In this document: piece by piece, positions 9,436 through 54,508 of the stretch
How the letters are laid out: each line of letters starts with the position of its first letter
Numbering within the stretch: the stretch's first letter is position 1
Assembly (NCBI RefSeq): GCF_023115355.1
Contig: NZ_CP096019.1
Location: 744,001-808,000, forward strand
Direction of reading: 5' to 3'
DNA length: 64,000 nt
Source of the DNA: Halocatena salina
Lineage (GTDB): Archaea > Halobacteriota > Halobacteria > Halobacteriales > Haloarculaceae
Notes under the pieces: model-generated
The model's input: the letters and a program-made list of their open reading frames with translations, nothing else
What the model was told of the DNA's origin: nothing
The model's database searches: none
Program-made: the position numbers and the translations under genes

Positions 9436-11658
9436 ATGCAGACAGGCGTCGGCAGCGAGATCGGTGACCGATACGTTTCAGCACCGGTCCCACCGGATGC
9501 ATCAGATTCGTGGTACGCTCCGGAGGTGTGCGCTCAGTACGAGATTCATCCGGGCGTGGTGGTGACCATTCGGCGAGTGGACGGAACGACGACGTATGAT
9601 GTCCGAGAGCCGGGGCTAACCGACCGTGAGAAACGGACAGTCGATCGGATCACTGCGTATTTCCAGGGTCCGAATCCACCGCACACCAGAGAAGGTGTGG
9701 TCGACCGGCTGCGAGAGGGATTTCCACCGAAGTACGCACGCGTGTTCGAGCGATTCGTCGACGAATCGCTCCCGTGTGCGAGCCGCCGACGGATCGAGTA
9801 CTTCGCTCTCACACGTGTTCGGTGTTTTGGGGATCTAACGCCGTATGCACTCGATGAGCGGCTCACTGAACGGACTATAACCGGTAACGAACTGCTCGTT
9901 GAGACGCCCGAGTACACTTCCATGCGAACGGGGCGTACGATCGACGCCGAACGCCAATCGTGTTACCGGCGTCTGCTAAGCGAGCGTCAACACACGTACA
10001 CTGTATCGTTTCTGGAGTTCGAGATACCGATCGTCGTTTACCGAAAACATGGCTCTCAGGGCACGTTCACTACGGCGTATGCGGTGTGTGAGCCTACCCT
10101 ATTGCCGGGAGATGAGGCGCTTCTCACACGGTGTAAAGAGCAATTTTGGGAAATAGACGTGAGCGAGCTTCTCGTTCGGAACGATTCTCAGGGACCTCTG
10201 CCATCCGAAGCTGGTCCGTCGGGGCCTCCACGCGAACACCGTGACCGGATCACGTTCGTACGCGACCGGGCAAAACGGCTCTTTGCTCGTCGTCTCACGG
10301 CACAAATGACGCACGGACGGATCGGTTCGCTCGTCCATCGTCTCCACGCGGCGCTGTCCGAACACAGCCGACTCGATCCGCCGGGAGGCGAACTGGTCGA
10401 GTCGGATCGATTAAATGATCTCTTGTATTATATGCTTCGGGATTTCGTCGGCTACGAACGGTTGACGATCCCGATCCATGACGACCGACTCGAGGACATC
10501 GAAGTCAACCGTGTTGGGGACAGCATCAAAGTCGTTCCTCGGGGTAATGCTGGTCGAACACCGACGAACCTTTGTTTCGATGATGAAGCGACGTTCAGCA
10601 ACGTCGTCACCCAACTCGCTGCGGCCGACGGTGTCGAACTCAACGCAAGCACCCCGAGCGCGAAGGTAAATCTCGATCCCATCGGCGCGGCACCGTCCAC
10701 GGACGTGACGATCCGGTGTGCTCTGGCGTTGGGAACCATCTCGGAGGGAGGTCCGCACGTTTCGATCAGAAAACAACGCTCCGATCCGCTCACACCGGTT
10801 GAACTCGTCCGGAGCGGTGCGATTCCGACGGCCTTGGTCGCGCTGTTGTGGTTGGTGTTCGAACACCATGGTGTCGTGCTCTTTTCCGGACCCACTGGTG
10901 TGGGAAAGACGACGCTGATGAACGCCCACATCCCGTTCATCCCCCACGACGACCGGCCAATCAGCATCGATGAAGGGTCTCGTGAGGTTCGATTGCCCCA
11001 CGAAACTGGCGTTTCGTTGCGAACCCGGGACCACCAGCAGCCGGACAAACGGGTTTCGATGGCTGATCTGATGACCGAGTCGAACTATCTCAATCCGGAT
11101 GTCGAGATCATCGCGGAGATCAACACGCCCGAAAGCTTCGCCACGTTCGGTGAGAGCATCTCGACGGGCCACGGGATCGTGGGCACCACCCACGCCGAAA
11201 CGATCGAGCGACTCACGAACCGCGTCATCGAGCAAGGACTACCACCCCACCTCCTTCCGGAGATCGACCTGGTGGTGTTCCCACGCCACATCGATGGGGA
11301 GCGGTACGTGGGGCAAGTGGTGGAGCTAGTTTCGGAGACGGCCTGTGAATCGATCGACGCGACGACGATCGAACGAGATGACGTGACGGTGACGTACAAC
11401 ACGGTGCTTCGGCGGACTTCGGACGGGGGGTTTACCACTACGTTCGGTCCGCCATCACAGGAATCGGACGCGGTCACACGTCCACAGCTGTTCTATCGGC
11501 TCGCCGCTCGGACTGACCTCCCGGTCACGGAGATCGAGGCCTCGTTTCGCCGAAAGCACCGCTTCGTACGATCGCTCGTCGAGGAGAACGTCACGGAGAT
11601 GAACGTACTGTTCGAACGGCTCGCCCGCTATGACGAACACCGAACTGGTGAAACGTGA
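9436..11658 (+). CDS. Type IV pilus/secretion-type ATPase, PilB/VirB11-like (740 aa)
   Basis: Motor ATPase of archaeal type IV pilus-like machines. The Walker A is FSGPTGVGKTTLMN (about 482-495) and the Walker B/His-box region is DVEIIAEINTPESFATFGES ending in STGHGIVGTTHAE (about 554-585). The usual GEIRD of the family reads AEIN here. The roughly 400-residue N-terminal part is the variable region found in haloarchaeal PilB proteins. The frame is open from 9277, but the ATG at 9436 sits about 29 bases after a TATA element. It overlaps the two-domain membrane platform gene by 4 bases, which is the canonical pilB-pilC arrangement. Confidence 0.88.
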   Translation: MQTGVGSEIGDRYVSAPVPPDASDSWYAPEVCAQYEIHPGVVVTIRRVDGTTTYDVREPGLTDREKRTVDRITAYFQGPNPPHTREGVVDRLREGFPPKYARVFERFVDESLPCASRRRIEYFALTRVRCFGDLTPYALDERLTERTITGNELLVETPEYTSMRTGRTIDAERQSCYRRLLSERQHTYTVSFLEFEIPIVVYRKHGSQGTFTTAYAVCEPTLLPGDEALLTRCKEQFWEIDVSELLVRNDSQGPLPSEAGPSGPPREHRDRITFVRDRAKRLFARRLTAQMTHGRIGSLVHRLHAALSEHSRLDPPGGELVESDRLNDLLYYMLRDFVGYERLTIPIHDDRLEDIEVNRVGDSIKVVPRGNAGRTPTNLCFDDEATFSNVVTQLAAADGVELNASTPSAKVNLDPIGAAPSTDVTIRCALALGTISEGGPHVSIRKQRSDPLTPVELVRSGAIPTALVALLWLVFEHHGVVLFSGPTGVGKTTLMNAHIPFIPHDDRPISIDEGSREVRLPHETGVSLRTRDHQQPDKRVSMADLMTESNYLNPDVEIIAEINTPESFATFGESISTGHGIVGTTHAETIERLTNRVIEQGLPPHLLPEIDLVVFPRHIDGERYVGQVVELVSETACESIDATTIERDDVTVTYNTVLRRTSDGGFTTTFGPPSQESDAVTRPQLFYRLAARTDLPVTEIEASFRRKHRFVRSLVEENVTEMNVLFERLARYDEHRTGET

Positions 11659-13484
11659 CGATGGTCGGGGGCTCTTTCCTTGACCGTGGGCTGTACGCGT
11701 TGTTCGCTCGGAACGCAGATCGATCGCGCCATGATCGGGATCGGCAGTACTACCGCGGCGCAGCGCTCGGTGTAGCATTCGATCGATACATGGCGCGTGT
11801 CTACGGCGTTTCGTGGCTCGTATTCGGCTGTGTCCTGCTCTGTTCGGCCACTGTCGTAGCGATCGTGTCTACGACGGTGACTGGAACGACGTCGTTCTGG
11901 GTACTCGGCGGTGGCACAATCGGGGCGATTGGATTGGCGAGCAAACGAACAGTCGTGTTGGGCAGTCGCTACTATCTGAAATGGCTCCGTGCTCGGCGGC
12001 GCGAGCGGATCGAGCAGACGCTGCCTGGCGCGGTGCGATATCTCCGTGCGCTGGTCGAGGGAAGCGACGATCAACAGAAGATGTTCCAGCGGGTGGCAGC
12101 CCAAGACAGCTACGGAGAAACCGGTGTTGCATTTCGACGGGTGCTCAACCACGCTACGCTCACGGGGAGTTTCGAGCGCGGACTTCACACCGTTGCCCGT
12201 GATACTCCTTCGGAAGATCTGCTCGCCCCCTTCCTGTTGAAGTTCAGCGAACACGCCCGACAGGGTAGTGATGCACTTTCTCGATATCTCCGGATGGAAT
12301 CTCGAATGCTGTCTCACAGACAGGCCCGTGTACGACAACAATCACGTGATTTTCTCGAACTCATCGCAGAGCTGTTCGTCGTGTTGTTGGTGCTGCCAGC
12401 GTTGTTGGTCATCGTTGTGTCGGTGCTGTCGGTGCTCTCTCCCCGACTCTCCCAGCAGTTGTTTACTCCATTCGGCGGAATCTCTGTTCGTTCCGCGTTG
12501 GTGTATGGGAGCGCCGTGTTCGTTCTATGGGTCGGTGCCGGTGCAGCGTGGCTCATCGGAACGATCCGCCCGCCAGGAGCGACTCCGACGAGATACGATC
12601 GGCCCGACAGTGTGGTCGCCACCGTATCGAGTGTGCCATCCAATCCAGCGAGTGCGAGCGTACTCGCGGTTCCACTGGCGATCGTCGTCTGTGGAACCGG
12701 GATCGTCGTCAGTAGTGTCAACCTAGTGAACGCCGTCCTACTCGGATACGTCACGGGCGGGATCATCGTCGGTGGTGTCGCAGTACGCCGACGCCGATAC
12801 GACGACGCCAAGGATCACGAGCTCCGTGATTTCGTTCACGCCGTCGCAGGGCACGTCCGTCTCGGACAGCCCTTCAGCGTGGCTGTGCAGCGTGTCGCCC
12901 ACGACGTCGATTTGGGTGCACTCCGGTCGGATGTCAACGCGCTTGCGTTCAGACTCGGACTGGTGACGTCTCCCGACAGTGAATCGTCGGTTCCCATAGC
13001 GGCGTTGGATCGGTTCGTCGATCAGGTTGGAACACCGTTGGCGGCTCAAACGGTCGGTCTCGTGACCGGTGCGCTCGACGCCGGAAGTGATGCTGATGCG
13101 GTGTTCGAAACCCTCCAGACGGAGATCGGCCGGCTCTATCACGAGAAGCGCACGCTCAAAAGTACGATGACCGTCTACGTCGTCGTCGGATGGACGACCG
13201 CGCTACTCATCGTGGCCATCATGATCGCGGTGAATAACTACGTTCTCGATAGTTTCGCACAGCTTGCATCAGTTTCCGGCCCGACGGAAGGGATCGGGAT
13301 CGTTTCCGGGGCAGTACAACCGGAACGCGACCGCTTCCACTGTTATGTGGTCACCCAATCGACGATGCTGGCGTGTGGTTGGTTCGCAGGCTACGCTCGG
13401 GCGGGGTGGTATGAGGCTCTGTTACACTCCTCGTTGTTGGTGGGTGTGACCTATGCGGTCTTCAACGGGGTGGGAATGGTATGA
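11655..13484 (+). CDS. Type IV pilus membrane platform protein, TadC/PilC-like (609 aa)
   Basis: Integral membrane partner of the upstream ATPase. Two GspF/TadC-type domains are seen: one with helical cytoplasmic sequence after LPGAVRYLRALVEGSDDQQKMF (about 120-210), and a second around AVAGHVRLGQPFSVAVQRVAHDVDLG (about 393-470). Each is followed by pairs of hydrophobic helices (for example FVVLLVLPALLVIVVSVLSV). It starts in an ATGA-type overlap with the ATPase and its own stop overlaps the next gene, so the locus is one translation-coupled unit. The duplicated-domain length is typical of haloarchaeal PilC. Confidence 0.85.
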   Translation: MTMVGGSFLDRGLYALFARNADRSRHDRDRQYYRGAALGVAFDRYMARVYGVSWLVFGCVLLCSATVVAIVSTTVTGTTSFWVLGGGTIGAIGLASKRTVVLGSRYYLKWLRARRRERIEQTLPGAVRYLRALVEGSDDQQKMFQRVAAQDSYGETGVAFRRVLNHATLTGSFERGLHTVARDTPSEDLLAPFLLKFSEHARQGSDALSRYLRMESRMLSHRQARVRQQSRDFLELIAELFVVLLVLPALLVIVVSVLSVLSPRLSQQLFTPFGGISVRSALVYGSAVFVLWVGAGAAWLIGTIRPPGATPTRYDRPDSVVATVSSVPSNPASASVLAVPLAIVVCGTGIVVSSVNLVNAVLLGYVTGGIIVGGVAVRRRRYDDAKDHELRDFVHAVAGHVRLGQPFSVAVQRVAHDVDLGALRSDVNALAFRLGLVTSPDSESSVPIAALDRFVDQVGTPLAAQTVGLVTGALDAGSDADAVFETLQTEIGRLYHEKRTLKSTMTVYVVVGWTTALLIVAIMIAVNNYVLDSFAQLASVSGPTEGIGIVSGAVQPERDRFHCYVVTQSTMLACGWFAGYARAGWYEALLHSSLLVGVTYAVFNGVGMV

Positions 13485-53093: not shown

Positions 53094-53627
53094 TCATTGA
53101 CCGACGTTTGGGAAGAAAATTTCCCATCCCTCGTGTCGGAAGCTTCCTAGCACCGTCTTATCGAGGGTTTGGACGTGCGTGTACAACTCCTCGCGCTCGG
53201 TTGCGGCCTGCATCAGGTCTTGGGCGTGTTGCGGTTCGTAGTTGCCAGCGAGGAGGATCACGTTGGCCGTCGCCTCATCATACAAGACGGTTACCTGGAA
53301 GATCTGCCCGCCGGATTTGGATTGGTACACTTCGTACTCCGGGAAGCCGCCACCTTCCTCGTGGCCGCGCTCGAACGTCTCGGAAAACTCCTCGGCGTCG
53401 TTGTCTGCGATCACGTGAATGAAGCCGTATCGGTCGGTATCACCCACCTCCGGCGGATTCGGAGCAGTATCGTCGGCTGCGATCGCGGTCGCCGTCCAGC
53501 CTTCTTGTTCGAGCTCGGCAGCCATCCCATTCATGTCATCGATCGTGGCTTGCCACGCCGATTTCCCTTCTTCGGTGGTAGCTGCACTTTGTTCGGCGTG
53601 AGCCCCATCTTCACCGGATTCGGTCAT
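53094..53627 (-). CDS. Conserved haloarchaeal protein, DUF7529-like (177 aa)
   Basis: Acidic, soluble; a variable low-complexity head (about 1-22), then WQATIDDMNGMAAELEQEGW and DRYGFIHVIADNDAEEFSET and ending GSFRHEGWEIFFPNVGQ. I recall this pattern as DUF7529, a haloarchaeal family of unknown function. A TATA element (CTTTAATG on the minus strand, 53650-53657) sits 27 bases before ATG 53627. The DNA beyond the start is AT-rich and holds the promoter of the divergent small gene at 53898. Confidence 0.72.
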   Translation of the reverse strand: MTESGEDGAHAEQSAATTEEGKSAWQATIDDMNGMAAELEQEGWTATAIAADDTAPNPPEVGDTDRYGFIHVIADNDAEEFSETFERGHEEGGGFPEYEVYQSKSGGQIFQVTVLYDEATANVILLAGNYEPQHAQDLMQAATEREELYTHVQTLDKTVLGSFRHEGWEIFFPNVGQ

Positions 53628-53867
53628 ACTGACAGCTGGATCGCATAGACATTAAAGTTCACTCTCTCTTCCTTGGAGGCTGGAGCAATATTCATCACTA
53701 TACAATTCTATTAAGATAAACTTCAACCTCCAAAAACAGTGTTCGTCACTAACTTGAGATAGTATGATTTGTGTGGCACTGACGATTGTATTATGCATGG
53801 TGTTCAGAGTGGGTATTAGTAGCAGTGCATATTCGTCCATACGTCTTTTATAAAAATTAGTAGTAAC

Positions 53868-53875
53868 TTTTAATA
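53868..53875 (+). promoter_or_regulatory. TATA element of the short Cys/Thr-rich peptide gene
   Basis: TTTTAATA centred 26-27 bases before the ATG at 53898, the same spacing as at the other leaderless genes here, in AT-rich DNA that spans about 53640-53895. Confidence 0.6.
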
Positions 53876-53897
53876 CATTACATAGCGACATTATGGT

Positions 53898-54044
53898 ATG
53901 TCAGTAGCGATTGACACAGAATCCGGTGTGAATAAGGACGCATACGATGCGGAGTTCGATGATAACCACACAGTTCACGATGAGAAAGTCAGCACCTGCA
54001 CTATCATACCGCACGGCGCAGGTGCGTGTATCACTTGTTTTTGA
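53898..54044 (+). CDS. Small Cys/Thr-rich peptide, possible RiPP (lanthipeptide-like) precursor (48 aa)
   Basis: An ATG at 53898 opens 48 codons that end in TGA at 54042. The first 30 residues (MSVAIDTESGVNKDAYDAEF and a further acidic stretch) look like a leader. The tail STCTIIPHGAGACITCF looks like a core: three Cys and four Ser/Thr in 17 residues and no Lys, Arg or Met, with Cys-Thr, Gly-X-Gly and Thr-X-Cys spacing as in class II lantibiotics of the mersacidin type. A perfectly placed TATA element precedes it and a strong hairpin follows it (54054-54087). No LanM, LanB/C, YcaO or radical SAM gene lies in the window, so it would be an orphan precursor or use enzymes elsewhere. Function is inferred. 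Confidence 0.55.
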   Translation: MSVAIDTESGVNKDAYDAEFDDNHTVHDEKVSTCTIIPHGAGACITCF

Positions 54045-54053
54045 CGGGAGGGA

Positions 54054-54087
54054 CCACAACAACCGACGTTTTCGACGGTTGTAGTGG
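54054..54087. terminator. Strong hairpin behind the short peptide gene
   Basis: Left arm CCACAACAACCG, right arm CGGTTGTAGTGG: 12 positions pair with one mismatch, and two more pairs close a TTTT loop. It begins 10 bases after the peptide stop and lies before the convergent membrane-protein gene end. Likely a shared transcription end or stabilising structure. Confidence 0.55.
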
Positions 54088-54109
54088 ATCGGGGCCGTTC
54101 GTTCGGCGC

Positions 54110-54508
54110 TTACCGTGCGACACCGAACACGGTTTCGAGCACGAACGAAAGCGCGAGGATGAAAACGCTTGCCAGCAGCAGTTTCGCTCCGGTTGGAAAT
54201 CGTTCATCGGCCGTCAGTCCGTACGAATCGAGCGGCGGGAGTCGTTGAAGCCTCGCCTGCAACACCGGTTTGTCGGGTTCCGGTAGCCGGGAATCGTCAC
54301 GCCACGGAGGCGTTGGCCGGAGGGCGAACGTACCGATCCCGAACAGCCCGATTCCGAGCACGAACAGGACGAACTTCACACCTACCCAGCCCCAACCGAA
54401 CACGAAGCTGCTGATGGCTGCACCGACAAAGGCGATCACCGTGACGGCGACGGCGTACACGAACGCATCCACCATCTGCCGAACACGGATCGACGGCTGT
54501 CGATCCAT
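54110..54508 (-). CDS. Small membrane protein at the end of the peptide ABC operon (132 aa)
   Basis: Two helices in the first half (FVYAVAVTVIAFVGAAISSFVF and VKFVLFVLGIGLFGIGTFAL), a cytoplasmic loop with PTPPWRDDSRLPEPDK and one more helix near the C-terminus (LLLASVFILALSFVLETVFG). I recall a haloarchaeal family (DUF7555-like). Its ATG overlaps the last base of the ABC ATPase stop, so it is translated from the same mRNA. No function known; may be an accessory of the transporter or a hitch-hiker. Confidence 0.7.
   Translation of the reverse strand: MDRQPSIRVRQMVDAFVYAVAVTVIAFVGAAISSFVFGWGWVGVKFVLFVLGIGLFGIGTFALRPTPPWRDDSRLPEPDKPVLQARLQRLPPLDSYGLTADERFPTGAKLLLASVFILALSFVLETVFGVAR

Follow-up and report, generated by a model that had tools for sequence, protein, structure and literature searches.

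This study addressed whether a 48-codon reading frame of Halocatena salina, with no biosynthetic partner beside it, encodes a genuine lanthipeptide precursor, and if so of which kind and by which enzyme its product might be modified. The frame lies in a window (the whole 64,000-nucleotide stretch that was analysed; G000:C1:744001-808000) at 53898..54044 on the plus strand, running from ATG at 53898 to TGA at 54044, and its translation is MSVAIDTESGVNKDAYDAEFDDNHTVHDEKVSTCTIIPHGAGACITCF, a 48-residue peptide with three Cys. A first-pass annotation, made from the sequence alone, had proposed a class II precursor of the mersacidin type that is unlinked from its enzyme.

The orphan gene and its surroundings

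The TATA box that had been proposed 26-27 bases before the ATG is present as TTTTAATA (53868..53875, plus strand), centred approximately 26 bases upstream as judged by eye, consistent with a leaderless promoter. Comparable TATA boxes are found 25-27 bases upstream of both homologues described below, with the promoter word TTTAATACATTA kept at 27 bases 5' of the same-genome paralogue and TATAATA lying approximately 25 bases upstream of the ATG of larA in genome G345. The predicted product consists of a leader, MSVAIDTESGVNKDAYDAEFDDNHTVHDEKV (53898..53990, plus strand), that carries the haloarchaeal LanA leader motif, and a putative core, STCTIIPHGAGACITCF (53991..54041, plus strand); the exact point of cleavage between them is predicted by comparison with LarA. 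Downstream, the strong hairpin of the first-pass annotation was recovered (54054..54087, plus strand; 15-nt arms at 54054-54068 and 54073-54087 with a 4-nt loop; -19.5 kcal/mol, z -2.6 against shuffles), starting 9 bases past the stop where 10 had been given. No U-run comes after the hairpin, the sole T-run (TTTTT) overlapping the stop codon, and a terminator role is thus not established.

The gene had also been placed between two convergent operons, which is incorrect: the flanking DUF7529 gene (53094-53627) and DUF7555 gene (54110-54508) are both on the minus strand. No modifying enzyme adjoins the orphan, as had been noted. Synteny and alignment against congeners place the gene in an AT-rich, species-specific segment of approximately 440 bp (53670..54100, boundaries approximate). 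The segment was considered as a mobile element and rejected, given that it has no second genomic copy and no bounding terminal repeats. The oligopeptide ABC transporter in the neighbourhood was likewise set aside as most likely unrelated, since the congeners keep the neighbour order without the peptide.

A same-genome paralogue beside a LanM

That the short frame is a genuine gene and not a chance one is supported by a same-genome search, which matched it to a paralogue (MSVAIDTEVDVDKDAYDEQFDDNHTVHDQKVSTCTYLPNGVGMCHTCG; C1:1451502-1451642) that is 74% identical (E 2.6e-20) and located 654 kb away. Divergent from the paralogue and 334 bp apart is a gene for a LanM of 1045 residues (L011:8978-12115) with full DUF4135 and LANC_like domains, a TIGR03897 score of 639 bits (cut-off 304), and dehydratase motifs that align with their LicM2 counterparts. 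A LarH homologue comes after this LanM, so that the paralogue belongs to a complete larA-larM-larH cluster. Position beside a lanM is the usual, though not strictly defining, genome-mining criterion for a precursor; the paralogue has it and the orphan does not, its nearest LanM being the one 654 kb away. In the LarM of the paralogue cluster, the zinc site bears the CCG motif of ProcM-like enzymes (C918, C963, C964). This motif is not peculiar to that LarM, being present in every haloarchaeal LanM whose sequence could be read, and it therefore permits modification in trans without proving it.

The search for a LanM elsewhere in the genome, which the first-pass annotation had suggested, returned two complete LanMs, one on C1 (the larM-type enzyme above) and one on C3. 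The C3 enzyme (L012:7585-10827, minus strand) forms a second lanthipeptide cluster with two precursors (11566-11766 and 12975-13145, both plus strand) and an ABC transporter pair (L012:13759-15644, minus strand). Modification of the orphan by this second, complete LanM instead of the larM-type one is highly unlikely: the C3 enzyme has two precursors of its own, both with the leader MSATQSS...TDLKSEFDSEF, unlike that of the orphan, and shares only about 38% identity with the larM-type enzyme, whereas the orphan has almost the same leader as the paralogue beside larM.

Relationship to the larlans

Among 392 genomes of the order that were searched, one further strong relative, MSIALDIETGDKASYDQQFDDNHTVNDQRVSTCTYGGGMDKRACPTCDF, was detected in G345. 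Its gene is divergent from a LanM that is 59% identical to the paralogue-linked LanM, and the gene after the G345 LanM, taken as LarH, is 54% identical to its counterpart in H. salina. The G345 precursor ends STCTYG...CPTCDF, a tail that includes STCTY and CPTCDF, the published fragments of LarA (PMC12144867). The combined mass of STCTYG and CPTCDF minus three H2O, m/z 631.2198 (2+), is the same as the calculated value given for larlan A2 in the literature (PMC12144867); the G345 peptide is therefore LarA or a peptide sharing its core. The rings of larlan A2, proven by NMR, are Thr2-Cys10, Thr9-Cys3 and Thr4-Cys7 (PMC12144867), and their equivalents in the orphan are T33-C47, T46-C34 and T35-C44. 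Alignment of the orphan, the paralogue and LarA displayed all six ring residues (T33, C34, T35, C44, T46, C47) as conserved in the three peptides, while the residues between them are mostly variable. Lack of such conservation in relatives had been named beforehand as grounds for abandoning the lanthipeptide reading, and the Cys/Thr positions are instead retained in both the paralogue and LarA.

A small metal-binding or free-cysteine peptide, with no RiPP chemistry, had been kept as an alternative. Such peptides occur in haloarchaea, and three Cys, one core-region His and an acidic leader would suit one. Larlan homology largely refutes this alternative and makes it extremely improbable, because the Thr are as conserved as the Cys, the core His is replaced by Asn in the paralogue, and the peptides most closely related to the orphan are a precursor encoded next to a LanM and a LarA with the mass of a published lanthipeptide. 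The proposal of a class II precursor unlinked from its enzyme is accordingly upheld by a paralogue that adjoins a LanM and by a homologue whose core mass is that of larlan A2. The mersacidin subtype is probably wrong: mersacidin is likewise class II with a Thr/Cys core, but the likeness appears superficial. No relationship of leader or core to it emerged from these searches, the orphan peptide gave no match to a Pfam or NCBIfam lantibiotic model, and the homologues found are all of the archaeal larlan type.

The leader places the orphan among other haloarchaeal precursors. Its motif, MS(V/I)A(I/L)D...K..(Y/F)D..F, is common to the archalan-alpha precursor (L067), to ciblan-type precursors of Haloferax (L030, L031) and to precursors flanking LanMs in G227 and G174. 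The L067 core, GCGFTCSPFSSW, is the archalan-alpha core as published (PMC10105419), and L030 and L031 are called ciblan-type from their ring residues and host (PMC12144867). Precursors of both kinds have been experimentally proven (PMC10105419, PMC12144867), with cores and ring patterns that differ from those of the orphan. With the shared leader motif, three Cys and three ring Thr, the orphan combines the leader and the Cys/Thr core of a LanA, and recognition by a LanM is predicted from these features. In this genome, a model built from 12 leader-motif precursors matched the two larlan-type copies alone, and in the six congeners it matched nothing; it missed the C3 precursors, whose leader differs, and other leader types may escape it as well.

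Two further observations were made on these loci. The core TASCYLPCHTASKLPCCDTTN is identical behind clearly different leaders at L028:7351-7533, L030:7678-7857 and L031:7678-7857, spanning Haloferax and G174 of another family, a strict cross-genus core conservation. Additionally, four different precursors flank one LanM in G227 (L027:4281-9089, minus strand).

Distribution and divergence of the two copies

None of the six congeners has the orphan at the corresponding site, although the neighbours stand in the same order there; the closest of these, the sister species G004, has approximately 70 unrelated bases in place of the approximately 440 here. No LanM was found in G004 by this search, and the other congeners have either no LanM or LanMs only about 30-36% identical to LarM. 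The latter are L060, L061, L062, L064 and L065 of the Halocatena genomes G001, G003 and G005, among which an in-frame stop occurs in G005:C5 and the match in G001:C3 covers residues 6-649 only. Haloarchaea that form hyphae and spores are relatives of Halocatena (PMC10067837). Among the genomes compared, the larlan cluster and the orphan both appear peculiar to this species, and given its absence from six congeners the orphan is not an old feature of this locus in the genus.

Weak matches to the orphan in G006, G014, G111, G424, G470 and G187 were dismissed as chance, being short or partial and in several cases interrupted by internal stops or embedded in long frames; the regions of G006 that were examined contain no lanthipeptide-like reading frame. 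A plasmid search with the orphan peptide and with LarA gave no match, and no relative of the orphan was found on viral contigs.

Over their 48 codons, the orphan and the paralogue differ at 25 third, 10 first and 8 second positions, giving a dN of 0.18 and a dS that is saturated by NG86 and approximately 2.3 by maximum likelihood. The third-position difference of 0.52 exceeds the 0.22-0.33 measured for flanking genes when H. salina is compared with its sister G004. Provided that the rates are similar, the copies thus parted before the two species did, and the protein has been retained throughout. The simplest history is that a copy which had already diverged was acquired separately, with differential loss as the alternative.

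These values also bear on whether the orphan is a stranded relic, which arrived or was duplicated off its cluster and has since fallen silent or begun to decay. Presence in only one of seven Halocatena genomes, AT-rich species-specific surroundings and the lack of an adjoining enzyme or helper gene would fit a relic; a long separation without damage would not, as the frame, promoter box, leader motif and six ring residues are all intact despite the 0.52 third-position difference, which is above the between-species range, and dN is far below dS. A relic is therefore considered unlikely, and the preferred reading is that of an intact precursor served by a distant enzyme.

LarH as a possible helper domain

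LarH homologues (L011:12120-12776, plus strand; L026:4038-4682, minus strand) were seen only beside larM-type LanMs among the LanM loci that were fetched. In the larlan paper, LarH raises the yield of larlan A2 and is described merely as an unannotated gene with its function unassigned (PMC12144867). By sequence, LarH matched no Pfam family and no PDB entry. A structure model built from two sequences (pLDDT 67, pTM 0.57) resembles class I dehydratases, in their C-terminal domain, and a thiopeptide cyclase (MibB, Z 13.0; MadB, Z 11.5; TbtD, Z 10.2; NisB, Z 9.8) in alignments covering 116-122 residues at 3.1-3.8 A, and its best Foldseek match is NisB (E 1.2e-3); unrelated ferredoxin-like folds match the same model at Z 8.5-10.3. 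A LanB C-terminal (elimination) or thiopeptide-cyclase fold for LarH is thus a good lead from modelling, and if it is true, a LanB-like domain assists a LanM. The Arg pair on which NisB depends for glutamate elimination is not readily recognised in LarH, and this would point to a function in binding or as a chaperone.

Proposed pathway and comparison with known systems

Combined, these results make it very probable that the orphan is an unlinked larlan-type class II lanthipeptide precursor, one that would be modified in trans by a distant LarM and LarH; we infer the trans step from larM- and larH-type genes that are present in the genome 654 kb from the orphan. The peptide would be expressed from its own leaderless promoter, and LarM would bind the leader common to both precursors and dehydrate Thr33, Thr35 and Thr46, which would then be captured by Cys47, Cys44 and Cys34, respectively, to close three methyllanthionine rings with the help of LarH. 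Host proteases would cut off the leader and probably some of the inter-ring PHGAGA loop, the latter cut yielding a two-chain (diamino-dicarboxylic, DADC) product as judged from LarA only; this two-chain form may not arise, as the loop is PHGAGA here and GGMDKRA in LarA. By analogy with other archaeal lanthipeptides, the product might act on other haloarchaea or on the behaviour of its own cell. A broader proposal, to which we would give an even chance, is that one substrate-tolerant LanM and a LarH helper, the latter a stand-alone LanB-elimination/thiopeptide-cyclase fold beside a class II enzyme, turn two unlinked and separately controlled precursors into two larlans.

The orphan shares with the larlans (LarA/LarM/LarH; PMC12144867) its leader, the STCT...C.TC frame, the ring residues, the LanM type and a LarH homologue, and the paralogue's cluster has the same divergent larA-larM layout; it differs in standing alone, 654 kb from the enzyme, and in having IIPHGAGA in place of the YGGGMDKRA of LarA. 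Medlan A of Haloferax mediterranei, with three methyllanthionines, belongs to the two-chain subfamily of the larlans (PMC12144867) and is likened to them here through its published description. The prochlorosins and synechococsins (ProcM, SyncM) likewise combine scattered precursors with one LanM bearing a CCG zinc site (PMC10783134, PMC12328550), but they are bacterial, have a Nif11-type leader and number dozens of precursors against two here. Prochlorosin precursors are dispersed over genomes, breaking adjacency to lanM (PMC10783134), a precedent by which modification in trans is possible in principle, and CCG zinc-site LanMs have been associated in review with low substrate specificity (PMC12328550).

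Surveys of archaeal lanthipeptides drew their precursors solely from lanM neighbourhoods (PMC10105419), so that stand-alone precursors were missed, and no orphan archaeal lanthipeptide precursor was found in the open-access literature. The gene described here is, from its homologies, predicted to be a new unlinked member of the archaeal larlan family, with the class of the first-pass annotation right and the subtype probably wrong. The orphan and its paralogue share their ring positions but not their loops, and form a natural substrate pair suited to the study of how LarM sets the unusual LL-methyllanthionine rings and of how loop cleavage occurs. Overall, the finding suggests that haloarchaea, like picocyanobacteria, can keep a precursor unlinked from its enzyme.
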